From assembly GCA_009829735.1 (NCBI GenBank), contig CM020620.1, positions 19,442,020 through 19,506,019 on the forward strand: a DNA stretch of 64,000 nt. Direction: 5' to 3'. Shown one piece after another: positions 1 to 53,252 of the stretch. The stretch is from Pyropia yezoensis (Eukaryota; Rhodophyta; Bangiophyceae; Bangiales; Bangiaceae). Position 1 is the stretch's first letter. Each line of letters starts with the position of its first letter. The translations under genes and the position numbers were made by a program. The notes beneath the pieces are model-generated. The model did no database searches. It saw nothing but the letters and a program-made list of their open reading frames with translations, and was not told the origin of the DNA.

Positions 1-1812
1 CCCGTCCTGCTCAGCATTGGTGCGCGCTGGCGGCAGAGTGCTTGAAACGCGGCGGTCTCGGCCGACGTGGCCGCCGCATCGCCCTTGTCGTCAAAGCCCC
101 GGTCGTACCGGGTGAGGTGGAAGTGACCACGGGAGGAAGAGAGGGGCACAGGGTGGGGAGGGGGGGGACGCGACCACGTCGTCGCTGCTGGCGCCTACCG
201 CGAGGGTACCGCGTCGCAGAACCCGACGCATAAGCGCCGCTACGCCGCAGCCCGATGCTTGGGCGCCGCTACAGCAGCCGCCCGACGCTCGGGCGCTGCT
301 ACTGCCGCGCTGCGGCGCTCTGCAGCGCAGCCAGTAACACTGGCTGGCGCTGGCCTCGAGCACGATCGTCACCGTGCACCCGCCAGCCATCCGGTGGGCA
401 AACAATACCAGCAATAGCGGCACCTACCCAGACCTACGGGGCTTCGTGTACATACTACAGGGCGTCTACCGGAAAGGCCGCCATGGCTTTGCCAGAGCGT
501 GCGCCGCACAGCCATACATTGCATGCTGGAGGGCTACTTAACGGCTTCATGGCCATCGTCTTAAGGACGCGACAATGGGGAACAAGGACACCATGACAAC
601 TGTAGAAGTATGCATGGATAGAGCCGGTAACTATTGCAAGTTCGGGTCAGCATGGTGCGAGCCATCCGCGAGGAGACGTACTGGTCTGCGGGTCCGCTGC
701 TCCCTTAACTAGGGCACAGCTACGCGCATACGCCTGCTGCATCCGTATATCAATCCATGCTCTCCTGTGGGTCACAGCTAGGACGCGTTTCTTGAAGTTG
801 GACGCTGTCTGAGAGGGTGCGAGAAGATCTCCCACCAAGCTGCTCCTCAGGCGGGACAATGCGCAAGAAAATCGTCGCTTGCCGTCCAGTCACCCATCCC
901 TTTTTCAGGTTCGGTGGTCAAACCGTCTCTGGAGGACAGAGAGATGGGCGCTGCCCTGCAAAGAAGAGTGCAGTGTGATCAGAGTAGGTACGATCCGACA
1001 CCCATCCCCACATGGACAGACATTCGGTGAGCTCGCGCATTCCCATTCCTACATATGTGACGGAGACCAGGTGACCGTGGGTGACACGGTGTGCACCCCA
1101 CCTCCCTGAGCCAGCTGCAGTGGGCCCCTCCGCCACATGGCGTACTCTTAATCCATGCATCCCAGAATCGTCGCCCTCAGCATCTGCCCCCGTTGACTGA
1201 GCACCAGTTGTTCATCTGTCCGCCAACCGTATGCGGCAAGAGGAACTTACGCAGCGCCAAGCCCCTGCGCGCGAACCTGTTCGCTGCGCAACCGTACAAA
1301 ACCCTCGCTTCCTGGGTACATATGTGCCCTCTGTCAGTTCTGCTCATAGACGAGAGTAGGGGACTGAGTGAGAACTGAGTGTCAGCCGGGGCGTAGCAGG
1401 TGAAGCGCGTCCCATCGGTGTGATGGCGCCCGACATGGTCGTCTTCGGCTGGTGCTGCAGGAGACTATGTGCAGATGGTCAGGTCCGGAAGCGGACAAAC
1501 GCCCCATGCTGCGCGCAGCAGTGTGAGAGAGCACGCATGTCCATGTCCGATGTGGGGGATAGGTCTCCTCTGCTCCGGGCGCACGGGTACGCCGTGTGGC
1601 ACAGTGCAAGCAGGTCGCACTTGGGCGACACGGCCGTCCATTTTAAAGTTCAAATGACATTGTATCCCGGATCCATTCGTATTTTCAAACAGATCGGTGC
1701 AATTTTTGATGCGGACCCCCTCGGACGGCCGCGTGGCACCTTCGTGCAGCCGCCGCTTGGCAGCCCGTTACAGAAATACTGCGCGCGCGCGCGTGCCTGC
1801 GGACGGGTACGC
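1..1812. other. Gene-free stretch, no recognisable feature
   Basis: I see no reading frame with recognisable domains, no RNA gene and no clear repeat here. Short open frames on both strands overlap each other and look like chance frames in GC-rich DNA. A GC dinucleotide run lies near 1785-1795. Confidence 0.5.
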
Positions 1813-7948: not shown

Positions 7949-10900
7949 GAGGAAGGATGAGGGGGGGGCGCTGGGGTAACCCAAGCAAGCCACCCCGGAG
8001 TACCGCGGGGAAAGCCCCACGGCGAGCGCGTTTGAGCCGGCGCCGCATCAATCCCCGGGTACACCTTCCAACCCCGACGACACGGAGTCAGGGGAATGAT
8101 GAGAATCCCCCGATAACGGGAGGCGAGGACGGGATGCCCCGTCACGTTGAACCAGCCAAGGGCCCTGTCCAGGATGCCCGAGGAACACCGGATATCGGTG
8201 TAGGCCATGTGCTGTTTACCTTGGAGAACTTCAAGGTATCAGCCACACTGGGGGTTGACCCCCAGTCGACACGATCGTACTACCCTGTACTGGATACAGA
8301 AGCTGGACCCAACCTTATCCGGAAGGATACCCTCCCGGACAAGTGGCTTCCGCGAGTCAGAGCGACTCGGGACCCACCATTAAGGACGCGAATGGTCGCC
8401 TCATTCGTACGACCGCAGCGATGTCGCTGCGGGTTACCATCGGGGAACTCACCACGGAAGTCGACTTCTTGGTGTGTGAGACCCTATCGGTGCCCTGCAT
8501 ACTGGGGTGCACCTTCATCAACGTTCACGTGGATGCAATCCGGCCAGGCCGGAGGACCGTTGAGCTTCAAGAAGCCGACGGGACGAAGCGAGGACATACG
8601 GCTATCGTCAGGGACCTGACGCTACAAGGGAGCCACGTTAACGTGGCTGAGGTGTACGCAAGCGTCGAGCCGAAGACACTTCGGTTGGCCAAGCGAACTC
8701 GCTTTGAGCCGTTGTCGGAGACAGTCCTCCCGGTTAACTGTGACCTCGCAGGTATCTGCAGAGTCCGGTCCAACCTGCGGACGTACAAGTGCCATGGGTT
8801 GACCATGGCCAACGGTCTCATAGACCTCCCAGCAGGAGGGTCGTCCCTCCTAGTGATGGCGAACTATCGCCGTAAGGCAGTCACCCTCCCGAAGGGAACT
8901 ATCCTCGGGATTGCCGAGCTCTACGAAGGAGATATCCTTACCCCTGAAAAGGAAGGTCAAGTGGAACCACTTGAAGTGCTTGCGGTCGCCGAGACCGCCG
9001 AGCGACAGCAACCCGATGACGGGAAGCCTAACCCATCGGCGGCTCCGGCGGACATGCCGCCAAAGGACCAAGAAGCACTGAAGGCCCTGGCCGAGGCTGA
9101 CCTCGACCGCCTACCCCTTCGGTAGCCGAAGGGGTACGACGGATGCTAAGAAGGTATGACGTCATGTGGACCGGTGGGGCGCTGGGTACCATTGGGGCAA
9201 CCCAACATCGTATAGACCTGGTACCAGGCGCACGACCCGCCCGGTCACAACCGCACCGAGCGGGACCTATGCAACGAGAGATCGTTGATGGAGAAGTGAA
9301 GAGGATGAGCGAAGCGAAGGTGATACGACCTTCGATGTCGGAGTGGGGTGCCCCAGTCGTTATCGTACCGAAGAAGGATCAAACCCCTCGGTTTTGCATC
9401 GATTATCGACGCCTCAACTTGGTTACCAAGAAAGACTCATACCCTTTACGAAGGATGGATGAATGCATCGACTCCCTGGGGGAAGCTACGGTGTTTACCA
9501 CCATCGACTGCAATGCCGGATACTGGCAGATCCCAGTGGCGGACGAGGATATCCCCAAGACGGCGTTCGTCTGTCACAGTGGAGTGTACGAGTTCCTAAG
9601 GATGCCCTTCGGATTGTCCAACGCCCCCGCTACATTCCAGCGGGCTATCGACATTATACTGTCGGGGGTGAAGTGGCGTAACTGCCTAGTGTACCTCGAT
9701 GACGTCATCGTCTTCTCGCGCAACATGGATGACCATGTGCAACATGTTGACGAGGTACTCACCCTCTTGAGGGACGCCGGGGTAACCCTGCGTCTGAAGA
9801 AGTGCGCCTTCTTCCAACAGACGGTCGAGTATCTGGGCCACCAGATAACCCCTGGTAAACTAGGGGTACTCGAAGCCAATACCCGGGCACTCCGGGATGC
9901 CCGCTTCCCTAACACCCAGACGCAGCTCAAGAGCTTCCTGGGAATGTGCAACGTATACCGACGGTTCTTCAAGGACTTCGCTCGGATAGCTAAACCGTTA
10001 ACGGTTCTTACGAGCAGTACCTTGCGCAAGGTACTCCAACCCCCTTCGCCTAGCGAAGAGGAGGCATTCGAGTCGCTGAAGCGAGCCCTACTATCCCCAC
10101 CCGTCCTTGCGTTACCGCACAGACGGGGTGCCTTCGTCATCGACGTCGATGCCTGCGACACCCAAGTGGGATGCACCCTGCTACAGGGAGAGACGTTGAT
10201 CGGTTCCGATAACGTTATCCCGGAGCTACGTCCGGTAGGGTACTTCAGCCGGACACTCAACCCGGCTGAGCGTAACTATAGTGCCACCGAGCGTGAGTGC
10301 CTCGGGGTTATATGGGCAGTGCAACTGCTCCGCCCATACCTGGAGGGCTCTATGTTCATCGTGAGGTCCGACCACGAACCTCTACGATGGCTCCTCAACC
10401 TTGGTGACAAGGATTCCGATAGCCATGGGAGGCTAGCCCGATGGAGGCTGAAGATGGCCGAGCACGACTACCGTACCGTGTATAAGGCTGGGTCAACCCA
10501 CCACCTCGGAGACGCGTTGTCTCGGCTCGACACCCCGAGCGGAGATACCCGCCCGGTGGACGAGGACATCCCGGTGGTACCCGTCTGCATGGTGGGTAAC
10601 GCCACCCAAGGTATGGTTGACCATACCATGGCACACCGAGCATGCCCACTGACTCTCGCGGACTTCCGCGAGGCACAAGCCAATGACGACGACTGTAGAC
10701 GCCATCGCGCTAACCTCCTGGCCGGTACGGCCGGCATCTTCTCCGAGAATGAAGACGGACTCATATACCGGCGGGCACCCGCCGATGGACGACATCAAGT
10801 CGTGGTTCCCGTGTCCTTACGGCAGGCCGTCATGGAACGAGAACACGAGAACCCCACAGCCGGACACCCGGGGGGTTCGCGCATGTTCGCAGCAATGCGA

Positions 10901-12130
10901 AGGTTCTTCTACTGGCCAGCAATGGCCGTCGACGTGGTCGACCACGTAAGGGGATGCCACCCCTGTGCACGTAACCGCATGAGTCTACATAGGCGGGCAT
11001 CCGCGATGAAACTGCTCCCCCCAGACGGGCCCAACGAGCAAGTCGCTATCGACATACTCGGACCGCTTCCGGTAACGGAAGAAGGGAACAGGTACATCCT
11101 GGTCATGTCAGACCGATTCACTAAGCTGTCACGAGCGGCAGCCATCCCGATTGATACGGCTTATACCATCATGAACGCAGTGGTTGACCACTGGATCAGT
11201 GCATACGGAGTCATGAAGCATCTCCTCTCCGACAACGGAGCAAACCTGACGTCAGCATTCTGCACTAAGGTCATGGGCATGTTCGGGATCGAACCACGTC
11301 GGGCATCCGACTACCACCCGCAGACCAACGGACAGGTGGAGCGGTTCAACCGCACCATCGTCAAGATGCTCCAATGCTATGTGGCGGAGCACACGAAGAC
11401 GTGGGACAGGCTTCTGTCCGTCTTGACCCTGGCATACAATGCCAGGCCCCACCGAAGTACCAGTATTGCACCACTGGAATGGGTCATGCCAATGGGCGTC
11501 GGGAACCTGACGCTGCCACCGGGCAGGTGCACTCGGTATGACATACCGAAGGGCCGACCGGCCGAACGGATCCACTTAGCTTGGTTGGCCAAGCTATCGT
11601 GGATGATACCAAAACTCAAGGGCGCCCTTGACCGTACACAACTTCGATACAAGAAGAACTTCGACGCCCGGCTACGGGTGCGCAACGCTACCCTGATGAC
11701 AGGTGAGTGGGTTTACATCAGACACCAGAAGTTCCGGGGGAACAAGCTCATGCAACCGGTCAAGGGACCGTACCAGATTCTCCACAGAGATGACCACTCT
11801 GTCATCCTGCACTCCGATACGGAGATCCAACGCATCAGTGTGAATGATGTCACACCTGCTCCGAAGCCGGAACAGCCTCAGCCGGTACCGGCTGGGTTGC
11901 TACACGAAGCTCTTACAACCCACCGGTCAGATGACCCGGTGGGACCGGATGGGATTCCATACCAAGTAGAGGGCGTGGTCGGACACACCGACCCGGTTGG
12001 GGGGCGCGAGAAAGAACTGAGGCAGGCCACGGCTAAGTCAGACGGGGTACTCCTCAAAGGCAGGCATTGGTATCATGCAAACGCCCCAGCGGGGGATGAG
12101 TTTATACTCACTACTACCCGGCCACCATAA
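7936..12130 (+). pseudogene. pol: Pol polyprotein (PR-RT-RH-IN), plus-strand copy, frameshifted
   Basis: Domains in order: aspartic protease near 8270-8330; reverse transcriptase about 9200-9900 with YLDD at 9692-9703; RNase H about 10100-10450 with DVDAC, ERE and RSDHEP motifs; integrase about 10800-11700 with an HH-CC zinc region (CHPC) and a D-D-35-E triad (AIDILGP, SDNGAN, QVERF); then a GPY module (GPYQIL). The C-terminal ~100 residues might hold a degenerate chromodomain. Damage compared with the minus-strand copy: the protease motif DTGA is DTEA, one base is missing near 8375, and another near 9110-9120. RT to integrase (9143-12130) is one open frame. It ends 40 bp before the convergent stop of the antisense frame. 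Confidence 0.9.
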
Positions 12131-13199: not shown

Positions 13200-13493
13200 T
13201 ATCCCCCCCTTAGATTCGGCCCGTCCTCGGGTCGAGTTGCATTCGGGTTACCGAATGTAAGTGGGTCGCGTGACCGTTTACCTGTCGGGTGGGGCTTTGC
13301 GCCCGGTCGCGACAGACACCCCTTTTCGAGGTTGTCTGAGGGGGGTGCCCCCCTTTGTGTGGTACACACACGATCCGTTTTCCGGACCGTTAAATTCCCG
13401 ATGCGGGTTTCTGTTCACGACCCCCCTTTCCGAGGGGTGGTGCAAGCGGATCCGCCACCAGGCGTCTGGTGGTAGCGGAGCCCCTCTCGTGTT
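13200..13493 (-). other. Polypurine tract and 3' untranslated region, second copy
   Basis: A CTAAGGGGGGGATA tract on the minus strand abuts the LTR (13200-13213). The following ~280 bp match 2883-3175 with few differences. At about 13493-13507 the sequence switches to the middle of the pol C-terminus, marking a deletion that removed the end of pol and the whole antisense frame from this copy. Confidence 0.8.
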
Positions 13494-16400
13494 AGAAATA
13501 CAGAGTGATCATCTCTGTGTAAGATCTGGTACGTTCCCTTGACCGGTTGCATAAGCTTGTTCCCGCGGAACTTCTGGTGTCTGATATAGACCAAGTCACC
13601 TGTTACCAGGGTTGCATTGCGTACCCGTAGCCGGGCGTCAAAGTTCTTCTTGTATCGAAGTTGTGTACGGTCAAGGGCGCCCTTGAGTTTCGGTATCATC
13701 CACGATAGCTTGGCCAACCAAGCTAAGTGGATCCGTTCGGCCGGTCGGCCCTTCGGTATGTCATACCGAGTGCACCTGCCCGGTGGCAGCGTCAGGTTCC
13801 CGACGCCCATTGGCATGACCCATTCCAGTGGTGCAATACTGGTACTTCGGTGGGGCCTGGCATTGTATGCCAGGGTCAAGACGGACAGAAGCCTGTCCCA
13901 CGTCTTCGTGTGCTCCGCCACATAGCATTGGAGCATCTTGACGATGGTGCGGTTGAACCGCTCCACCTGTCCGTTGGTCTGCGGGTGGTAGTCGGATGCC
14001 CGACGTGGTTCGATCCCGAACATGCCCATGACCTTAGTGCAGAATGCTGACGTCAGGTTTGCTCCGTTGTCGGAGAGGAGATGCTTCATGACTCCGTATG
14101 CACTGATCCAGTGGTCAACCACTGCGTTCGTGATCGTGTAGGCTGTATCGTTCGGGATTGCTACTGCCCGTGACAGCTTAGTAAAGCGGTCCGACATGAC
14201 CAGGATGTACCTGTTCCCTTCTTCCGTTACCGGAAGCGGTCCGAGTATGTCGGTAGCGACTTGTTCGTTGGGCCCGTCTGGGGGGAACAGTTTCATCGCG
14301 GATGCCCGCCTATGTAGACTCATGCAGTTACGTGCACAGGGGTGGCATCCCCGCACGTGGTCGATTACGTCGACGGCCATAGCTGGCCAGTAGAAGAACC
14401 TTCGCATTGCTGCGAACATGCGCGAACCCCCCGGGTGTCCGGCTGTGGGGTTCTCGTGTTCTCGTTCCATGACGGCCTGCCGTAAGGACACGGGAACCAC
14501 GACCTGATGCCGTCCATCGGCGGGTGCCCGCCGATATATGAGTCCGTCCTCGTTCTCGGAGAAGATGCCGGCCGTGCCGGCCAGGAGGTTAGCACGATGG
14601 CGTTTACAGTCATCGTCATTGGAATGTGCCTCGCGGAAGTCCGCGAGGGTTAATGGGCACGCAAGGTATGCCATGGTATGGTCACCCATACCTCGGGTAG
14701 CATTACCCACCATGCACACCGGGACCACCGGGATGTCTTCGTCCACCTGTCGGGTATCCCCGCTTGGGGTATCGAGTCGCGACAGCGCGTCCCCCAGATG
14801 ATGGGTGGAGCCGGCCTTATATATGGTCCGGTAGTCGTGCTCGGCCATCTTCAGCCTCCACCGGGCTAGCCGACCGTGGCTGTCGGAATCCTTGTCACCA
14901 AGGTTGAGAAGCCATCGTAAAGGTTCGTGGTCGGACCTTACGATGAACCTGGAACCTTCCAGGTATGGCCGGAGCAGTTGCACTGCCCATATGACTCCGA
15001 GGCACTCGCGCTCGGTGGCACTATAGTTACGCTCAGCCGGGTTGAGTGTCCGGCTGAAGTACCCTACCGGATGTAGGTCCGGGATAGCATTATCGGTACC
15101 GATGATGATCTCTCCCTGTAGCAGAGTGCATCCCACTTGGGTGTCGCAGGCATCGACGTCGATGACGAAGGTCCCGCGTCTATGCGGCAACGCAAGCACG
15201 GGTGGGGCTAGCAGAGCTTGCTTGAGCAGCTCGAATGCCTCTCCCTCGCTGGGCGAGGGAGGTTGGAGTATCTTTGGTAAGGCACTGCTCGTCAGAACCG
15301 TTAACAGTTTGGCTATACGAGCGATGTCCTTGACGAACCGTCGGTATACGTTGCACATCCCCAGGAAGCTTTTCAGCTGTGTCTGGGTGGTTGGGTATTG
15401 CGCATCCCGGAGTGCCAGGGTATTAGCTTCGAGCACTCCCAGTTTACCTGGTGTGATCTGGTGACCCAGATACTCGACTGTCTGCTGGAAGAAGGCGCAC
15501 TTCTTGAGGCGCAGGGTTACCCCGGCGTTCCGCAAGAGGGTGAGTACCTCGTCGACATGTTGCACATGGTCATCCATGTTACGCGAGAAGACGATGACGT
15601 CGTCCAAGTACACCAGGCAGTTCCGCCACTTGACTCCCGACAGTATAATGTCGATGGCCCGTTGGAATGTGGCGGGGGCGTTGGACAATCCGAAGGGCAT
15701 CCTTAGGAGCTCTTACACGCCATTGTGAAAGACGAACGCCGTCTTGGGGATATCCTCCTCCGCAACTGGGATCTGCCAGTACCCGGCATTGCAGTCGATG
15801 GTGGTAAACACCGTAGCTTCCCCCAGGGAGTCGATGCATTCATCCATCCTTCGTAAAGGGTATGAGTCTTTCTTGGTAACCAAGTTGAGGCGTCGATAAT
15901 CGATGCAAAACCGAGGGGTCTGATCCTTCTTCGGTACGATAACGACTGGGGCGCCCCACTCCGACATCGAAGGTCGGATCACCTTAGCTTCGCTCATCCT
16001 CTTCACTTCTCCATCAACGATCTCTCGTTGCATAGGTCCCGCACGATACTGTTGAGACCGCGCTGGTCGAGCACCTGGTACCAGGTCTATACGGTGTTGG
16101 GTTGCCCCAATGGTACCCAGCGCCCCACCGGTCCACATGACGTCATACCTTCTTAGCATCCGTCGTACCCCTTCACCTACCGAAGGGGGGAGGTGGTCGA
16201 GGTCAGCCTCGGCCGGTGCCTTCAAGGCTTCTTGGTCCTTTGGCGGCATGTCTGCCGGAGCCGCCGATGGGTTAGGTTTCCCGTCATCGGGTTGCTGCCG
16301 CTCGGTGGTCTCGGCGACCGCAAGCACCTCAAGTGGTTCCACTTGACCTTCCTTGTCAGGGGTAAGGATATCTCCTTCGTAGAGCTCGGAAACCCCAAGG

Positions 16401-17368
16401 ATAATTCCCTTCGGGAGGGTGACTGCCTTACGGCGATAGTTTGCCATCACCAGCAGTGATGACCCTCCCGCTGGGAGGCCGACGATACCACTGGCCATGG
16501 TCAACCCATGGCGCTTGTAGGTTCGTAGGTTGGACTGGACTCTGCAGATGCCTGCAAGGTCACAGTTAACCGGGAGGACAGTCTCCGATAGCGGCTCAAA
16601 GCGAGTCCGCTTGGCCAGCCGAAGTGTCTTCGGTTCTACGTTGGCGTATACCTCAGCCACGCTAACGTGGCTCCCTTGTAACTTCAGGTCTCTGACGATA
16701 GCTGTCTGTCCTCTCTTCGTCCCGTCGGCCTCTTGGAGCTCGACGGTCCTCCGGCCCGGCCGGATTGCATCCACGTGAGCGTTGATGAAGGTGCACCCCA
16801 GTATGCAGGGCACAGATAGAGTCTCACACACCAGAAAGTCAACTTCCGTAGTGAGCTCCCCGATGGTGACCTGCAGCGACATCGCTGCGGTCGTACGAAT
16901 GAGACGACCATTCGCATCCTTGATCGTGGGTCCCCGAGCAACTCTGACTCGCGGGAGCCACTTGTCCGGGAGGGTATCTTTCCGGATCAAGTTAGGTCCA
17001 GCCCCTGTATCCAGTACGGGGTAATACGACCGGGTCGACTGGGGGTCAACCCCCAGTGTGGCTGATACCTTGAAGTTCTCCAAGGTGAACAGTACGTGGC
17101 CTACACCGATATCCGGTGTGGCTCGGGCATCCTGAACAGGGCCCTCGTCTGGTTCCATGTGACGGGGCTTCCCGTCCTCTCCTCCCAGCCTTGGAGGTTG
17201 GGCATCAATCCCCTGACGCCGTGTCGTCGGGGCCGGAAGGTGTACCCGGGGGTTGATGCGCCGTCGGCTCAACCGCGCTCTCCGTGGGGCTTTCCCCGCG
17301 GCCGTCCGGGGTGGCTTGCTTGGGTTACCCCAGCGACCCCGTGTCGTCCTTCCTCTTACTCGTTTCCC
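13494..17368 (-). pseudogene. pol: Pol polyprotein, minus-strand copy, 3'-truncated with nonsense codon
   Basis: From the slippery site at 17362-17368 the -1 frame encodes an intact protease motif (LDTGAGPN), then RT (YLDD near 15599-15610), RNase H and integrase with the D-D-E residues (SDNGAN, QVERF). One in-frame TAA (about 15710) replaces a Tyr codon just before MPFGLSNAP in RT; the frame is otherwise continuous. After the GTYQIL module (GPYQIL in the other copy) the protein diverges at about 13505 into 3' UTR sequence, so the last ~100 residues are lost. The copy complements the lesions of the plus-strand one: good protease here, unbroken RT frame there. Confidence 0.9.
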
Positions 17369-38032: not shown

Positions 38033-38958
38033 GGCAAGCGCAACAGAAGAAGCACCACTCTGCTTTCACCGGGGAGAGCAGTGTCGCCGGAGGGGGGGGG
38101 AGGGGGAGAATAGAACCGTTGTGCGTCCGTCGTCAACGGAGGGGAGAGCCGAGCGCCGGGCGGAAGGACGAGTCGTAGGCGCAGGACTGCAGGGACTGCA
38201 TTCCGCGTGGCTTCTCACCGCGCACCGCAGGGAGTCTCGAAGCTGGCGTCGCCCCTCATTTTCCACTCTTTTTTTACAGCTCGAGTCAGCCTGCCACGTG
38301 GCTGACATCGGGCATCACCTGCAAGAATGTGCAGAACTTCGATTTTTGGTGAGATGACCAATTTCCACCCATCTGGCCGCCGTGTGCTGTGTGTTCATCC
38401 ACAGTGTGGGTGGATTCCACAGTGGCAACTGTCAGCCCGCCTGTGTGGATGAGCTGCTCCTTGTTGCCGCCCGGCACACAGTTTGAGCACAGCAGATACG
38501 TATGCGCTTTTCGTCGCTGATGGATGCACTCGAGCCACACGGCACATGGACGAGGCCTTCTGTGGATACGGTACTGTATCCTATATGGTCCATGACAAGG
38601 ATTTTTGTGTCCCACGGTTCATGACACGCTTTCGGGCGCGCGCGCTATTGCGCGTCAGAGCACAGCTCTCCACGCCCACGCACGCTGTGCTCATGGTCAG
38701 CCGCCCCCGCCGCGTCCACCTCGTTGACTCACGCACGAAGCTCTGCGGCTGCATAACGGTGCCGAGGACAGAGCGCGAGGTAGGCTTATAGCCGATCGCC
38801 ACTCCGTACTGGGTGCTCCCCCCGCGGCCCGTCTGCATTTCTCCTGTGCGTTGATCGACCCCCCCCCTCCTCCTACCCGGCCCCGCGCCCGCTGGTACCA
38901 CTGGTGCGTCGCCCCCCTGTTGCCCTCTTCACCCTCCCGGTGGCCAACCTACGTTTCG
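38033..38958. promoter_or_regulatory. Divergent intergenic region (shared promoter candidate)
   Basis: About 0.9 kb lies between the minus-strand start at 38032 and the copine start at 38959. It is less GC-rich than its surroundings. I see no defined promoter motif and no gene. Confidence 0.35.
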
Positions 38959-41583
38959 ATGAGCTATCCTGGCGGAAGGGCGCCCGACTCGTGGGGCGCG
39001 CCCCCCGCGCCTCCACTCCCGGGCGGTGACGCCACCCGCAGCGGCAGCTACGGCGGCGGTGGCCCTGGCGGCGGCGGCTACTACCCTCCGGCGGATCCAT
39101 ATGGTAGTGGTGGCGGCGGTGGCCCGCCGCCACACGGCGGACCGCCGCCCTACGGCGGTCCACCGTCGTATGGCGGTCCGCCGTCGTACGGCGGTCCGCC
39201 GCCGTACAGCGGGCCGCCGCCGTACAGCGGACCGCCGCCGTACAGCGGGCCGCCGCATGGTGGGGGTGCCCCTCCGGCACATGGACCTTCTCCCCCAGCC
39301 CCCGCGGGCGGGTATGGACAATGGGGGCCGCCTCCTTCGGGTCCGTATGGGGATCATCCGACGCCGGGACACGGACCCGGCGTTGGGCCGGCTGCGCATG
39401 CGCCTCCACCGTATGCGGGTGGGCATGGGCAGGCTTCCCCGCCGCCGCAGCAGCAGCCACCTTCTGGCCACGCGTCCCCGGGTTTTACTAGCCGTAGTTT
39501 CTCTGGGGGAGTTGCTGTTGCCCCGTACGGTGCTCCGTCGGTGGGCTACCCCCCCCCTCCAGCAGGGGGTGCGCCCCCTTATAACGCCGAGCCATCTGGC
39601 TACCCGCCGTCGTCGGTCGCGTCCGGCTATGGTCATCCTCCGTACGGGGGACCCCCTGGCGCGGCCTACCCTCCACCTGCCGGCTATGGAGCGCCCGCCA
39701 CGGCGGGCGGCGCGTGGTCGGGCGCCCACGGCCCTTATCCACCTGGCGGGGGCGGGAGCGGCGGCGGGGCCCTTACCATGGAGATAAGTGCTGTGGGCTT
39801 GCGCGACCGCGACGCCTTCTCCAAGAGCGACCCGATGGCCGTTGTGTATGTGGGCGGCGCTTTCGGTGCACCGCCTGTTCATCTGCCGCCTGGGGCCCCC
39901 CCACAGGTGGGACTCGCGGAAGGCGCTCCCGCCGAGGTAGGCCGCACCGAAATGGTGCGCAACACACAGGCGCCTCGGTTCACCACCCGCATTGCCCTTC
40001 CGTATGTGTTTGAATCGGTACAGCCGCTGATTGTCAAGCTCGTGGACGTGGACGATGCAAAGAGCGCGCGGCTGGCGGACCAGGACGACCTTGGCGAAGC
40101 GAGAACTACGGTGGCCTCGTTGCTGTCGGGCCGCGTCCTTACTCTGCCACTTCACCCGTCGGGGAATGTAGGCGGTCGTCTAGGGGGGATAGGCCGCAAC
40201 TGGGGGTCCGTCACGCTCGTCGCCCACCTGGCGTCCCAGGAAGGTGGGGGGGCCGTGCGGCTGTCGTTTTCACCCGCGGCCACCAACCTGGCTCGCATGG
40301 ACGGGCCGTTCAGCAAGAGCGATCCGTATCTCAAAGTCATCCAGGTCATTCGCGGCTCGGGGCCGGTTGCCGCTGCAGCTGGCCGCGGACGCGGTGGTGG
40401 CGTTCTCGGCCGCAACCGGCGGCGCCCCCTGCCCGTCGCAGCGGGCGTTGCTCATTCACTGCTCCACACCTCGATCGTTATCCACAACAATCTCAACCCT
40501 GTGTGGCCTGGGGTATCGTTGTCGCTGGACTCTTCGGTGGGGGAGGAGCTCCGATTTGAGGTTTGGGACCACGACAGCACCGGGCGTGACGACATTATCG
40601 GGTCCGCTACAGCAGCGATGCCGTCGCTTGTGACGGGAACTGGGGCCCCTACCTCCCTGCCGCTGCTCAAACCGGGGCAAGAGGCGGCGGGCTCGGGTGG
40701 CGGCGGCGGCCGCTTCTCACGGACCCCTAAATCGCCTGGCATCCTGCACCTGTCGCACGTGTCTTCAACGACGGTACCGAACTTCACAGCCTACCTCCAC
40801 GGCGGTCTACAGCTGAACTTTGCTGTTGCCATCGATTTTACTGCGTCAAACGGCGCACCCGCCGACCCGGCGTCGCTGCACCATGACACGGACTGGACGC
40901 CATCTCCCTATGTGGCAGCTTTGCGCGCCGTTGGCGCCGTCCTCGAGCCCTACAGCCGGTCGCGCCGGTTCGCGGCGCTGGGCTTTGGGGCTGTCCTCCC
41001 CGGAGGGGGCGGGGGGAGGGTGAGCCACAATTTTGTGCTGGCGGGTGGGTCTGACCCGCACGTAACGGGCGTTGACGGCATTGTCGCTGCCTACCGCACC
41101 GCTTTAGGTGGGGTCACGTTATCAGGTCCTACCCACTTTTCCGAATCGATTGAACATGCGACGCGCCTGGCAGGGGCGGTGCCATTCTCCGCCGCCCACC
41201 AAGAGTACCATGTGCTTCTGCTCGTTACTGATGGGGAGGTCATGGATATGGCTGCGTCACAGAGGGCAATTGTGGCCGCCGCGGGGGTTCCGCTGAGCAT
41301 CATCATCGTTGGGGTGGGGCGCGGGCCGTTTGGCCGCATGGAGGACCTGGACGGGGACGCGCCCGTGGGGGGGGTGGCGGGTGGTGCGCCCGCGCCAGCC
41401 TATGGCGGCGGCATGAGCGGCGGTGGGGTTCCTGGTGGGGCGCCGCGGCGAGACCTGGTGCAGTTTGTTCCATTTGAACAATTCCGTGGCTCCCCGCCGG
41501 CTCTCGCCGCCGCCGTCCTCGCTGAGCTGCCGTCTCAGGTGACAGACTTTTGTGCCGCCCGGGGGGTATTTCCAAGGAGGTAG
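38959..41583 (+). CDS. Copine-family protein (C2-C2-vWA)
   Basis: A protein of 874 residues from MSYPGG. The first ~270 residues are Gly/Pro/Tyr-rich with repeated GGPPSY/SGPPPY units (about residues 57-98). Next come C2A (~272-420, FSKSDP acidic loop), C2B (~432-600, MDGPFSKSDPYLKV) and the copine vWA domain (~616-874) with the metal site DFTASN, plus TPYVAALRAVG-like and LLLVTDGEVMD motifs. Copines are cytosolic proteins that bind membrane phospholipids in response to Ca2+ and act in signalling and trafficking; plant BON1 is an example. The order C2-C2-vWA is the family standard. The YGGPP-rich head is longer than in typical members. The upstream in-frame Met (38851) gives a proline-rich extension and is less likely. 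Confidence 0.93.
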   Translation: MSYPGGRAPDSWGAPPAPPLPGGDATRSGSYGGGGPGGGGYYPPADPYGSGGGGGPPPHGGPPPYGGPPSYGGPPSYGGPPPYSGPPPYSGPPPYSGPPHGGGAPPAHGPSPPAPAGGYGQWGPPPSGPYGDHPTPGHGPGVGPAAHAPPPYAGGHGQASPPPQQQPPSGHASPGFTSRSFSGGVAVAPYGAPSVGYPPPPAGGAPPYNAEPSGYPPSSVASGYGHPPYGGPPGAAYPPPAGYGAPATAGGAWSGAHGPYPPGGGGSGGGALTMEISAVGLRDRDAFSKSDPMAVVYVGGAFGAPPVHLPPGAPPQVGLAEGAPAEVGRTEMVRNTQAPRFTTRIALPYVFESVQPLIVKLVDVDDAKSARLADQDDLGEARTTVASLLSGRVLTLPLHPSGNVGGRLGGIGRNWGSVTLVAHLASQEGGGAVRLSFSPAATNLARMDGPFSKSDPYLKVIQVIRGSGPVAAAAGRGRGGGVLGRNRRRPLPVAAGVAHSLLHTSIVIHNNLNPVWPGVSLSLDSSVGEELRFEVWDHDSTGRDDIIGSATAAMPSLVTGTGAPTSLPLLKPGQEAAGSGGGGGRFSRTPKSPGILHLSHVSSTTVPNFTAYLHGGLQLNFAVAIDFTASNGAPADPASLHHDTDWTPSPYVAALRAVGAVLEPYSRSRRFAALGFGAVLPGGGGGRVSHNFVLAGGSDPHVTGVDGIVAAYRTALGGVTLSGPTHFSESIEHATRLAGAVPFSAAHQEYHVLLLVTDGEVMDMAASQRAIVAAAGVPLSIIIVGVGRGPFGRMEDLDGDAPVGGVAGGAPAPAYGGGMSGGGVPGGAPRRDLVQFVPFEQFRGSPPALAAAVLAELPSQVTDFCAARGVFPRR

Positions 41584-42326: not shown

Positions 42327-42474
42327 CTTGTAACGATCGTCGCGCTCCCAGACGTGCGAAAGTGCCGTAGTTGCCCTTGGCACGGGGACCTCCTGCGCCG
42401 CTTGTAACGATCGTCGCGCTCCCAGACGTGCGAAAGTGCCGTAGTTGCCCTTGGCACGGGGACCTCCTGCGCCG
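42327..42474. repeat. 74-bp tandem duplication
   Basis: Two essentially identical 74-bp units beginning CTTGTAACGATCGTCGCGCT lie head to tail (42327 and 42401). They end in GGGGACCTCCTGCGCCG and are followed by GCAGCGG. Function unknown. Confidence 0.9.
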
Positions 42475-42651: not shown

Positions 42652-42659
42652 AAAAAAAA
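42652..42659 (-). terminator. RNA polymerase III terminator (T8)
   Basis: Eight T on the minus strand, four bases after the tRNA discriminator base. This is the expected Pol III stop signal and fixes the 3' end of the tRNA gene. Confidence 0.8.
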
Positions 42660-42663
42660 TGGT

Positions 42664-42763
42664 TGGATCAGCGGGGGGGCTCATTGTTGCAATCGATCCC
42701 CGGACCTCTCGCAGGCTTGCACTGGTATGCTAAGCGAGCACTCTACCACTGAGCTACAAACCC
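42664..42763 (-). tRNA. tRNA-Ala (AGC) with two 14-nt introns, one in the T loop
   Basis: Read on the minus strand: acceptor GGGTTTG, TA, D arm GCTC-AGTGGTA-GAGT, anticodon stem CTCGC/GCGAG, loop TTAGCA...T with anticodon AGC. A 14-nt insert (TACCAGTGCAAGCC) lies at the canonical 37/38 site. The T stem is CGGGG/CCCCG, but its loop is 21 nt: a normal ATCGATT plus 14 extra nt (GCAACAATGAGCCC). The 3' acceptor strand CTGATCC gives G1-C72, G2-C71 and the G3-U70 wobble that specifies alanine, with one T-T mismatch at 6-67 and discriminator A73. With both inserts removed the RNA is 72 nt. Without the T-loop intron the T stem cannot form. Ectopic tRNA introns are known from Cyanidioschyzon merolae. 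Confidence 0.82.
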
Positions 42764-48621: not shown

Positions 48622-50607
48622 TTAGGGCATGGGCAGCGGCAGCACCCCCCCCAGGACCCCCCGCACAGCCCCCCGCACGGCCCGAGCAGCGGCCGCCACC
48701 CCCCCCGCGGCGGCCACGTGCGGCTCGGCGGGCGCCACGGGGATCACTGGCGTGGCGCGGGCGGCGGCGGCACGCCGGGCGGCCCGCGGCAGGCCCAGTG
48801 CCTCCCCCCGCACCGCCGCGGCGGCGGCGGCCAGCCCCGTCACGCACGCCTTTTCCTGTGACCACGACGGGTGGCCGGCGCGGTCCACCCAGTCTCCCGC
48901 GAGGTACACGCCGGGGAGGCCCGCGGCGGTGACGCCGGCGGGGAGGGCGCCAAAGGAGCCGGGGGTAAAGAGGCTGACAGCCGCGGGCAGCCGCGTGATG
49001 GCCACGGCGGTGACCGACCCGGCGGGCACCCGCGGGCCGTCGGTGAGGGCGGCCATTGCAGCAAGGACCAAGTCCACGAGGTCGCCGTCGGGCATGCACA
49101 AAAGCGGGGCGGCGTGATAAAAATCAGCCTCGACCACCCCGCCGGGGCTGTGCGCGTACTCGTCCTGCAGGCGGGTGAGGTCGTACAGTGTCCAGCCCAC
49201 TGTCTCGAGGCCCGCCACCGCCCCACCCCCACACACATGGGAAGGGCCACCGGGGAGGGCCACCGGCACGGAGAACCACAGCCGGACGGCCACCACCGAC
49301 ACGGAATGGAGGGAGGAGAAGCCCCGGAACTGGGCGTCCCCGCCAAGCCACGGGGACGCCCGCACCAGCGCCTGCATGCCGGCAATGCCGACTGCAAAAA
49401 TGACCGCATCGGCTTGAACGGTCGTCGTTGGCGGCGGCGGCGGCGCGCCTGCTGCCGCCACTGCCGCCACTGCCGACGCCGCCGTCCCGCCAGCGGGCCC
49501 GTCGGTGAGTGTGACGGCAATGCCACCGGCGGGGTGGGGCGCCACTTCCACCACCCGGCCGCGGTCGCCAAAGCGGGTGTCGACGCGCAGTCGGCGGAGC
49601 CGGCGGAGCCACGGCCCAAACAGAAGCGCCCCCGAGCCGCCCCGGAGCCACCGCACGTCAAAGTCCCCCTGCTGGCGCAGCGCAAAGTAGGAGAAGCACG
49701 ACAGCGCGGCGGCGGCGCTGACGCGCTCGCCCGGCCCCATGGGCAGTACTAGCAAGAGCGGCAGCAAAAAGTGCGTGTACAGGTCGTCGGCAACGCCCGC
49801 ATTGGCGCAAAGGGAGCGGGCAGACAGGCAATCCCAGCGGGCCCAGCCGCTGGCCGACGCGGGCGCGCCCGCCGGGGCGGCGCCGTCCCCAAAGTCCGCC
49901 CACGCCGGGAGGAGCCCCGCCGCCGACGCGCGGGCGGCGGGCCCCAGCTTGGCTCGCGTGTAGGTCGCGGCCATGGCGGTGGCGAGCGGCGTGGGTAGCC
50001 GCGGGAGGTCCCCAAAGACGGGTGACGTGACCGTCACAGAGGGGGCGCCCGGCGGGTTGCCCCCCGCCGCCCACGTGTGCAGCAACGACGGGGTGTAGGG
50101 GGTGAAGAGGGCGTCGTCGGGGATGGCCAGCCGGTCGCGGATGAGCGCAAGCGCGTTCTTGTACGCCCGCCAGTAGCCGTGGATGCCCGCCTCGACGGTG
50201 CGCCGTGCAGGCGGTGCGCCCGGCGGTCGCGGCTCGGCGCCGCCATTGCCGCCGCCACCGCCTCCGCCGCCGCCGCCGCCGCCACCCTCCTCGGTCCAGC
50301 TAGCGGCGAGGCCGCCCGGCGCGTCGGCAGCGTCGACGAGCAGCACGTCCACCCCATGGGTGGGGTCGACCGCCACGCCAGCGATGGAGGCCACCTCGTC
50401 GGCGGCGGTGAAGCCCGCCCAACCGCCGCCAATCACCACCACCCGCTTGCGGCGGGGGGGGGGGGGAGACGCTGGCCCAGTGGGGGAGGAGGGCGCCCCC
50501 GCAGACGCGCGCGGGCTGCTGGGCGGCCGCCGCGATGGGAGGCGTCGGGTGTGGCCGCGGCCAGGGAGGGGGGGGTGAGTGGAGAGGGCCCACGCGATGA
50601 GGGTCAT
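48622..50607 (-). CDS. FAD-dependent amine oxidase / phytoene-desaturase-like oxidoreductase
   Basis: From the ATG at 50607 the protein has 661 residues. A Pro/Arg/Ser-rich leader with a short hydrophobic start (MTLIAWALS) precedes the Rossmann motif VVVIGGGWAGFTAADEV (about 57-73), where the FAD ADP binds. A Gly run (~104-117) interrupts the start of the domain. The C-terminal FAD signature GVYLAGDWVDRAGHPSWSQ (566 onward) is intact, as in the amine oxidase/carotenoid desaturase superfamily. The leader suggests organelle, perhaps plastid, targeting. The substrate cannot be told. The overall layout resembles plant and algal plastid FAD desaturase-like proteins more than polyamine oxidases. 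An upstream in-frame Met at 50805 would add 66 residues and is less likely. Confidence 0.82.
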   Translation of the reverse strand: MTLIAWALSTHPPLPGRGHTRRLPSRRPPSSPRASAGAPSSPTGPASPPPPRRKRVVVIGGGWAGFTAADEVASIAGVAVDPTHGVDVLLVDAADAPGGLAASWTEEGGGGGGGGGGGGGNGGAEPRPPGAPPARRTVEAGIHGYWRAYKNALALIRDRLAIPDDALFTPYTPSLLHTWAAGGNPPGAPSVTVTSPVFGDLPRLPTPLATAMAATYTRAKLGPAARASAAGLLPAWADFGDGAAPAGAPASASGWARWDCLSARSLCANAGVADDLYTHFLLPLLLVLPMGPGERVSAAAALSCFSYFALRQQGDFDVRWLRGGSGALLFGPWLRRLRRLRVDTRFGDRGRVVEVAPHPAGGIAVTLTDGPAGGTAASAVAAVAAAGAPPPPPTTTVQADAVIFAVGIAGMQALVRASPWLGGDAQFRGFSSLHSVSVVAVRLWFSVPVALPGGPSHVCGGGAVAGLETVGWTLYDLTRLQDEYAHSPGGVVEADFYHAAPLLCMPDGDLVDLVLAAMAALTDGPRVPAGSVTAVAITRLPAAVSLFTPGSFGALPAGVTAAGLPGVYLAGDWVDRAGHPSWSQEKACVTGLAAAAAAVRGEALGLPRAARRAAAARATPVIPVAPAEPHVAAAGGVAAAARAVRGAVRGVLGGVLPLPMP

Positions 50608-51056: not shown

Positions 51057-51559
51057 ATGATCCAGTCCCTGTTTATCATCAACTCGACAGGGTGCGTACG
51101 ACTGCTGTGTGCTCCCCAGCCTGACGACGCGGTGTGCACCCGCCTCGTGACGTTCCTGTCGCCCTCTGTTGTTGCATTCAGTCTGGCATGAGCGACGTGC
51201 GTAGGGAGGGCTGAGGGCCCAAGGCATGGCGGGGTGTTCAGCTGCCCTTGAGTTCCTCATTTTTTTTTTTTTTTTTTCTGCTCCCTTGCTGACGCCACGA
51301 CGCTGCTGTTTGGGGCTCAACCCCTCTTTATCTTCTGGGATGTTCCTTTCGTGTGGCTGCCGCCCGTGACTGCCGCCCCGCACAGAGAAGTCATCATTGA
51401 GAAGCACTGGCGAGGTAACGTCAGCCGCGCCGTGTGTGACGTCTTTTGGGCTGAAGTCGTCCGCTACGGTTCACGGGTGGAAGATGTGCCGCCCGTGCTG
51501 GCCGCCTCCACTGGTCCACCAGGTGCAGCAGGGAGCGGCGGAGGCAAGGACGACGGTGT

Positions 51560-51593
<34 letters not shown>

Positions 51594-53252
51594 CTGAAGG
51601 AGCGCCCGCCACCTACGACCACCGTCTCTACCACTGCCGCAGCGGCAGGCGCTCTCATCCACCTTTACCGCCATGGGCTCTACCTGCTAGCAGCGGTGGG
51701 CCTAGACACCCCCCCTCTGGAGACGGTCTCCTTCCTGGAGTCCCTCTCTTCGGTTCTTGAGTCATACCTCGGGGAGCTCTCGGAGCACGCTATCAAGGAC
51801 CACTTCATCACCGTCTATGAGCTGCTTGACGAGATGGTGGACAACGGGCGGCCACACACCACGGAGGTATGTGTCTTGCAGGAGCTGGTGGAGACGCCAT
51901 CGGTGGTGGGGCGGGTACTCGAAACGGTTGCGGCTGCCGCGGGCGGCGGTGTGGGCGGGGGGGGCACGCCGATGGGCGCCCCTGGGAGGCCACCAGGAGT
52001 CGGTAGTCGAATGGGTGGCGGCATGGGCGGGGGACCCGGGATGGGCGCACCTGGCCTGGGTGGCGTACCATCGGCAAGCGCGGTGGTGTCCGCCGCCACG
52101 TCGGCGGTGACGTCTGCTGTGTCCTCAGCGGCCGCGTCGGCTGCACAGGGCACGGCGGCGTTTGCCCAGAACAGGTTTGCATCAGCCGGCCCGCAAGGCG
52201 GCTTGGCCGGTGTGTATGCTGGGTATGCCGGCGGTGGTGGTGGCATTGCCGGCAGCGGTGGCGGCGGTGGCGGTATGGGTGGCGGCCACCGGTCGATAGG
52301 GCACCCCCCCTCCGGTTGGGGCAGCGGCGGTGGGGGCGGGGCCGCCCCTCTACTGCTGCCGTGGCGGCGCACGGGTGTTGTGCACCCCCAAAACGAGATC
52401 TTTGTCGACATTGTGGAGGAGGTGGACGCGTTGCTGCTCGGCCGGTCCGCTACTCCCCTGCACACGCTGGTCGCTGGCCGCATTAACGTTCGCGCCGCCT
52501 TGTCGGGGATGCCACACGTGACAATGACCTTGTCGGGCGGCGACGCCATGGACGACGCCGCCCCCCACCGGTGCGTCAAGGCCCGCGATGAAGGGGTCCG
52601 ACATGGGCCCCCCGGTGGGGGAGTGATCTCGTTTGTGCCTCCTGACGGGGCCTTCACCCTCCTCGAGTACGTGGTGCGGGGCGTCGACGAGGTGCTGCTG
52701 CCGTTGCGAGTCGAGGCGGACCTGTCGTTTGTGCCCGCCCACGACGGCCGTGGCGTCGTTGGGGGCCCCTCCGTCGCCGCCGTCGGGTGCGCCACCGGCA
52801 CCCTCTCGCTGGACCTGACCCCGTTTTCTCCGTCGCGCAATTGGGGCGGCGGCCCTGCCCCCTTTCACCAGTCCATCGTTTCGGACGCGGGGGGGGTGGT
52901 GCTCGAAGGCGTGACTGCCATCATACACTTGCCCGCGGGGGTTGCGGCGGTCACGCCCTCCCCGGCGGCGCACACATCTGCGTCTTATGACCCGCTCTCC
53001 CGGTCCCTCACATGGACCGTCGGACAGGTGGCGTCGGGGTTGTCGCCCCGCCTACATGCCACCCTGGTTGGCCGGCCAGGGGAGCGTACGCCTGTCGCGG
53101 CGGGCACGGCGGTGGTGGTAGAATGGCGCTTGCCGTCCACGGCCGTCACGGGGCTGCACGTGGACAGTTTGACCGTCACGGGCGAGAGCTATAAGCCATA
53201 CAAGGGGCTCCGGTGCGTCACCAAGTCGGGACGCTATGAGCTGCGGTTATAG
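51057..53252 (+). CDS. AP-3 adaptor complex mu subunit, two exons
   Basis: Exon 1 is 51057-51091 and encodes MIQSLFIINST plus two bases. A 294-nt GT-AG intron (51092-51385) with a T18 run and a pyrimidine-rich end follows, and exon 2 (51386-53252) continues GEVIIEKHWRGNVSRAVCDVF. The splice restores the conserved mu N-terminus. The product is 633 residues against about 420 for typical AP-3 mu. The excess is an Asp/Gly repeat (GACGGC hexanucleotides, 51565-51596) in the longin domain and an Ala/Gly linker (51930-52350). The mu homology domain starts at NEIFVDIVEEVDALL, an AP-3 hallmark, and ends YKPYKGLRCVTKSGRYELRL. AP-3 mu selects tyrosine-motif cargo for vesicles from the trans-Golgi/endosome to vacuole or lysosome-like organelles. 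Confidence 0.92.

Follow-up and report, generated by a model that had tools for sequence, protein, structure and literature searches.

The question raised by this locus is whether a nuclear tRNA gene that is interrupted in its T loop, as well as in its anticodon loop, can still deliver a normal tRNA, and by what rule the second intron would be recognised. By the usual account, the splicing of eukaryotic tRNAs is tied to position 37/38, with the endonuclease measuring from the mature tRNA. The window (the whole stretch of 64,000 nucleotides that was analysed) is C3:19442020-19506019 of the Pyropia yezoensis genome, which comprises 107.5 Mb in 11 contigs, three of them large (43.6, 34.3, and 29.4 Mb). 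The gene lies at 42664-42763, exactly where an earlier note on this DNA had put it, and on the minus strand, which that note had left unstated; the note had also judged the lineage to be red-algal, and rightly so, the organism being the bangiophyte P. yezoensis and not Cyanidioschyzon.

The window gene and its Ala paralogues

Read on the minus strand from 42763 down to 42664, the gene runs GGGTTTGTAGCTCAGTGGTAGAGTGCTCGCTTAGCA (exon), TACCAGTGCAAGCC (intron), TGCGAGAGGTCCGGGGATCGAT (exon), TGCAACAATGAGCC (intron), and CCCCCGCTGATCCA (exon). Removing 14 nt at 37/38 and 14 nt from the T loop, the two introns that had been proposed from the letters, leaves 72 nt with the features of a tRNA-Ala(AGC): the anticodon AGC, G3:U70, A73, and a cloverleaf with 7-nt anticodon and T loops, the acceptor stem having a single mismatch, U6xU67. 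Once this 72-nt form is given, the placement of the T-loop intron is unique. The parts are listed below, with intron bases counted back from the 3' end (I-1, I-2, and so on) and with loci elsewhere in the genome given as L numbers:

42728..42763, minus strand: exon 1, tRNA positions 1-37; AGC anticodon at 42729-42731; identical in 9/10 AGC loci, with G3 -> T in L038
42746..42756, minus strand: TAGCTCAGTGG, which we take to be the A-box region, uninterrupted
42714..42727, minus strand: canonical 37/38 intron, 14 nt; 3/4 positions pair between I-6..I-3 and 35..32
42692..42713, minus strand: exon 2, tRNA positions 38-59; T stem CGGGG, T-loop ATCGAT; 54-57 at 42694-42697
42692..42699, minus strand: GGATCGAT, presumably the 5' part of the B box
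42678..42691, minus strand: T-loop intron at 59/60, 14 nt, TGCAACAATGAGCC; absent exactly in L037, L039, and L040
42680-42683, minus strand: TGAG, I-6..I-3 of the T-loop intron; 3/4 standard pairs with 57..54
42664..42677, minus strand: exon 3, tRNA positions 60-73; A73 at the end, CCA not encoded
42652..42659, minus strand: T8 run, likely RNA polymerase III terminator, starting 5 nt past A73; reads as A on the plus strand

The T8 stop had been noticed before, and the internal promoter boxes are present with it: the A box is intact, and the B box is split, its last bases being parted from the 5' portion by the T-loop intron.

Running a tRNA finder had been suggested as a check, and the answer depends on the T-loop insert: ARAGORN reports no tRNA on the whole unspliced window, but returns tRNA-Ala(agc) with a 14-nt anticodon-loop intron once the insert is taken out. 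An Rfam search of the window gave nothing at the gathering score, the best RF00005 match at the Ala gene reaching 24 bits against a cut-off of 29. Folding, also suggested, gives a similarly divided result: the window intron has three of four pairs in the bulge-helix-bulge register described below, but the bare 72-mer, folded for minimum energy, does not adopt a cloverleaf, and its stability is no better than that of shuffles (z = -0.07). With intron options, ARAGORN also gave a 275-nt "tRNA-Gly" at 49973-50247, away from the Ala gene, which we take as spurious.

A genome search with the window gene, in which every candidate was scored (as in the initiator, Asp, and human-tRNA searches below), found 17 places: 10 Ala(AGC) and 7 Ala(CGC). 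Comparison of the window gene with its 16 paralogues fits both proposed introns. The mature sequences are identical in 9/10 AGC loci (L038 being the exception) and in 7/7 CGC loci; all 17 carry a 37/38 intron of 12-26 nt, and 12 (7 AGC, 5 CGC) carry a T-loop insert at 59/60, which is exactly missing in the other five, i.e., the three AGC copies listed above plus L043 and L045. Intact tRNA-Ala(AGC) genes elsewhere, with the window copy never expressed, had been named as a finding that would speak against the window gene; such intact genes exist as far as the T loop is concerned (3/10), but all ten AGC loci carry the 37/38 intron. Three tandem copies (L034-L036) are identical in gene and near flanks, with a spacing of ~8.2 kb. 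Among the eight non-identical AGC loci, i.e., with two of these copies left out, ungapped identity is 0.35 for the T introns and 0.36 for the anticodon introns once their final 7 nt are excluded; the upstream flanks reach 0.31 and the downstream flanks 0.28. TTTT begins within 9 nt of the mature end in 17/17 Ala loci, compared with 2.3% of random 30-nt window stretches holding TTTT. With exons unchanged and the short introns between them diverged, selection on the spliced product is the best explanation, and the shared 72-nt mature sequence, together with the three AGC copies that lack exactly the T-loop insert, places the window gene well beyond chance. Paralogues with and without the same intron also provide a natural series for intron gain and loss.

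As for its surroundings, an exact 74-bp tandem duplication (window 42327-42474) lies ~190 bp from the tRNA 3' end. Farther out, the window holds a Copine/C2-domain gene (38851-41583, plus strand), an adaptor-complex medium-subunit gene (51351-53252, plus strand), and two LTR-type retroelement copies with reverse transcriptase, RNase H, and integrase domains (9143-12130, plus strand, and 13415-17272, minus strand, the latter split over two frames).

The pairing register of the T-loop introns

In canonical 37/38 introns, loop bases 32-35 pair with I-3..I-6, and I-2, I-1, and base 38 form a 3-nt bulge. Moving this register to the T loop predicts that bases 54-57 pair with I-3..I-6. The prediction was scored on 29 of the 38 listed introns, with relatives (at least 60% alike) and two introns found by a rule-based pattern (Gly L141 and Ile L150) removed. 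Between I-6..I-3 and 57..54, 94/116 positions pair in these non-redundant introns, which are still not fully independent since rows of one isoacceptor share ancestry; shuffled introns have a mean of 47.4 pairs and a maximum of 67, none of 20,000 sets reaching 94, and the same 29 introns give 31-53 pairs when the register is shifted by -2 to +5. Four pairs are found in 11 introns, three in 14, and two in 4. The same test on 15 Ala 37/38 introns gives 45/60 pairs against a shuffle mean of 26.9.

The most constant base is I-5, a G facing C56 in 29/29 introns, and in 38/38 when the redundant and pattern-found ones are included. I-4 is A in 25/29, and I-3 tracks base 54, being A in 11/17 introns with U54 and in 0/12 with A54 (Fisher p = 0.0004); base 57 and I-6 show no covariation in the 29 introns (Fisher p = 1). 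In the window intron, whose tail is TGAG-CC, U·G57, G:C56, and A:U55 pair, and A54 faces G. Energy folding of the T arms alone recovers 55:I-4 and 56:I-5 in 13/38 introns (shuffles: mean 0.91, maximum 4 in 100 sets), mostly as a helix closed by a loop, i.e., the relaxed form, and introns of 11-14 nt leave little room for a second bulge and inner helix. Judged from sequence, the 59/60 introns are relaxed bulge-helix-bulge introns, in which the 3' part of the intron pairs with the loop and three nucleotides bulge out at the splice site, and they are placed as at 37/38, ahead of the final loop base.

With this simple rule (I-5 a G, opposite C56), such genes can be found in other genomes, where standard finders miss them: on the 38 T-intron genes, ARAGORN reports 2 unspliced, 28 after T-splicing, and 2 after an equal deletion 6 nt upstream. 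The ten missed after T-splicing are seven Asp copies whose 5' side is damaged or cut, initiator L100, whose stretch starts inside the gene, and initiator L117 and Asn L139, in which a D-loop intron is present too. A genome search with the U54 version of the pattern gave 70 matches against 145 for a reversed control, so this pattern is not selective by itself. Four of the 70 were already known (L062, L070, L084, and L091); reading 13 of the other 66, chosen by eye (L141-L153), added the two new T-intron tRNAs left out above and 11 that are not.

The 59/60 class across the genome

T-loop introns had been described in the earlier note as a rare ectopic type known from Cyanidioschyzon merolae. The link to C. 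merolae stands, but in the P. yezoensis genome they are not rare: Rfam, BLAST-like, and pattern searches, together with reading of loci, give at least 59 loci, spread over at least 13 isoacceptors, in which an insert sits at 59/60, a lower bound because some searches cover the best 63 of 1453, 40 of 94, and 40 of 46 candidates. They comprise 12 Ala, 22 Asp, and 6 initiator Met loci, and at least 7 Leu(CAG), 4 Ser(CGA), and 2 Asn, with at least one locus each for Val(TAC), Gln(TTG), Glu(TTC), Lys(TTT), Gly(GCC), and Ile(AAT); all of the Leu(CAG) and Ser(CGA) loci read (at least 7 and 4) carry T introns. The site is fixed by uninterrupted T loops for Ala, Asn, Gly, Ile, Asp (L113), and initiator Met (L099), and is placed by assuming a 7-nt loop for the other isoacceptors, boundary slippage leaving an uncertainty of up to 2 nt at some sites, that of Ile among them. 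Inserts are 11-44 nt long, mostly 11-14 nt, and vary freely in sequence and length, the bases pairing with the loop excepted. Human tRNAs used as probes found a match for Leu alone; elongator Met, Phe, Glu, His, Gln, Tyr, Arg, and Gly gave nothing. The genome does hold genes for Gln, Glu, and Gly (L135, L136, and L030), so the probe is insensitive and its silence uninformative. A repeat containing GGTTCGACGTCGTCCGTTGACGAAACGCC was also seen, exact copies of it being numerous on each of the three large contigs.

A third loop is interrupted as well. D-loop introns, mostly 10-21 nt, are found in Lys (L024-L029), Arg TCG (L021), Arg (L137), Trp (L056), initiator Met (L099, L110, and L117), Asp (L113 and L114), Asn (L139), and Ser AGA (L103). 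A site just before A21, the last D-loop base, fits in 8/8 cases compared with an intron-free form, and this site parallels 37/38 and 59/60. The pairing rule, extended by eye to the D-loop introns, fails for some, so for these we claim position alone.

All eight initiator loci found carry an ectopic intron (5 in the T loop, 2 in the D loop, 1 in both), as do all 24 Asp loci found (22 in the T loop, 2 in the D loop). All of these 8 and 24 places were read, and none is an undisrupted gene; the 11 contigs searched may lack some of the unplaced sequence of the alga. With 8/8 and 24/24 loci interrupted in the D or T loop, ectopic splicing looks obligatory. Of the 22 Asp copies with a T intron, 7 retain a standard acceptor strand on the 5' side, another is truncated, and in 14 the match begins only at position 8, so many Asp copies are probably dead. 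In those position-8 copies that were read, a shared other 5' sequence, often CCGCCAATTAAACTAG, replaces the acceptor strand, and the copies look as if they had spread within a larger repeat (C1:32.05-32.37 Mb, C3:19.1 Mb, and C3:1.0 Mb).

These counts also bear on whether the window copy is itself alive. Ala(AGC) is multi-copy, so the window copy could be a pseudogene, its T arm broken by an insertion and its work done by other Ala(AGC) genes. We consider this unlikely: its mature sequence is identical to that of its paralogues though introns and flanks have diverged, the T8 stop is present, the window intron has kept its paired G at I-5, and T inserts occur in 7/10 AGC, 6/8 initiator, 22/24 Asp, and all Leu(CAG) loci read, despite the intact T loop in 3/10 AGC loci and the dead appearance of L038 (G3 lost, 2/4 pairs) and of many Asp copies. 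Excerpts of PMC4090602 (papers given by PMC number are cited from excerpts throughout) add the general point in its favour that, in eukaryotes, a D- or T-arm insertion confined to one gene among many synonymous ones is usually read as the mark of a pseudogene.

Splicing machinery and known systems

The PF01974 profile finds two genes in the genome, one resembling Sen2 (L133; PDB Sen2, E 5e-10) and one resembling Sen34 (L132; E 5.7e-15), and PF12928 finds Sen54 (50 bits; 42.6 bits in a second search). A Sen15 candidate lies at L154:551-1387 on the plus strand (PF09631, 25.7-26.4 bits, slightly over the cut-off of 22); comparison with PDB sequences gave it no support.

We believe it very probable that this nuclear tRNA-Ala(AGC) gene is functional, its Pol III transcript having both introns removed by protein-catalysed splicing and its exons ligated. 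Following transcription by Pol III, the T arm and the anticodon arm would each fold into a relaxed bulge-helix-bulge, with each intron ahead of the final base of a 7-nt loop (37/38 or 59/60), I-6..I-3 paired with the first four loop bases, and I-2, I-1, and the last loop base forming a 3-nt bulge at the 3' splice site; the SEN tRNA-splicing endonuclease would cut both introns, and a ligase would then join the exons. In C. merolae, T- and D-introns are believed to be excised before the others (PMC9602550); by analogy, the T intron may be the first to leave in P. yezoensis. In C. merolae, Pus4 made no pseudouridine 55 while the T-arm intron was present (PMC9602550), which suggests that T-loop modification in P. 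yezoensis may also await splicing. Counting against this explanation are the 3/4 pairs of the window intron, the 4/29 introns with only two pairs, and the appearance of the helix in 13/38 energy folds.

An enzyme other than SEN could be the one that removes the T inserts, an idea that gains from the splicing of very short nucleomorph T-arm introns being unexplained in excerpts of PMC4090602. The pairing geometry of the T introns nevertheless equals that of the canonical introns (45/60 pairs in the Ala 37/38 set against 26.9 in shuffles), and a second enzyme seems improbable to us. That the mature tRNA keeps the insert and simply has a larger T loop is hardly credible, given inserts of 11-44 nt that are free in sequence and length except for the loop-pairing bases, sister genes without exactly that insert, and the 7-nt T loop needed for the elbow with the D loop.

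The genome as a whole would, on balance, be one of obligatory splicing in three loops: D, anticodon, and T-loop introns would fall under one rule, each sitting before the last loop base (with pairing of the tail to the first loop bases claimed for the anticodon and T loops), they would probably be served by one endonuclease of normal four-subunit composition, and initiation and Asp decoding would depend on ectopic sites. If so, the at least 13 T-intron isoacceptors, and the failure to find an initiator or Asp gene free of interruption, would mean that recognition independent of position is a necessity for a plant-sized alga, and the phenomenon extends beyond the extremophile Cyanidiophyceae and reduced nucleomorphs.

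Ectopic bulge-helix-bulge tRNA introns are known; one fixed T-loop site, the pairing rule, the scale, and the apparent essentiality appear to be new within the open-licence literature searched, in which we found no report on nuclear tRNA introns of Pyropia/Porphyra; "tRNA" is absent from the main text of the P. yezoensis genome paper in the excerpt of PMC7423979. The 59/60 site resembles the canonical eukaryotic 37/38 site in lying before the last of 7 loop bases, with the same register and 3-nt bulge. It differs in being in another arm, in interrupting the B box, and in lying away from the position that the eukaryotic enzyme is believed to find by measuring from the mature domain.

Among the closest known systems is C. 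merolae, likewise a red alga with several introns per nuclear tRNA gene, outside 37/38 as well as at it, in D, anticodon, and T arms and with bulge-helix-bulge motifs. Its T-arm introns are removed in cells; those named in the excerpts lie at 53/54 (Ile UAU) and 55/56 (Gly CCC), the sites being described as scattered (Soma et al. 2013, via excerpts of PMC9602550 and PMC3978253), whereas those of P. yezoensis share 59/60 and a pairing register that is fixed. A search for Sen15 in C. merolae found none (excerpt of PMC3978253), unlike P. yezoensis with its candidate; if that candidate is real, the idea tying ectopic splicing to Sen15 loss needs re-examination. The Guillardia theta nucleomorph also has D- and T-arm introns, whose removal was confirmed by RT-PCR (Kawach et al. 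2005, via PMC4090602), in a set that includes the 3-nt T-arm introns of Cys, Val, and a Leu pseudogene (PMC4090602). Many Guillardia introns lack a defined bulge-helix-bulge (excerpt of PMC3978253), whereas those of P. yezoensis are 11-44 nt long, follow a clear pairing rule, and belong to a free-living nucleus. Finally, the type IV junction of permuted tRNA genes (C. merolae, Thermofilum) also lies at 59/60 (PMC3978253). Unlike such genes, in which the 3' half is upstream of the 5' half, the P. yezoensis genes with 59/60 introns have their halves in normal order, and so are the exons of the window gene.
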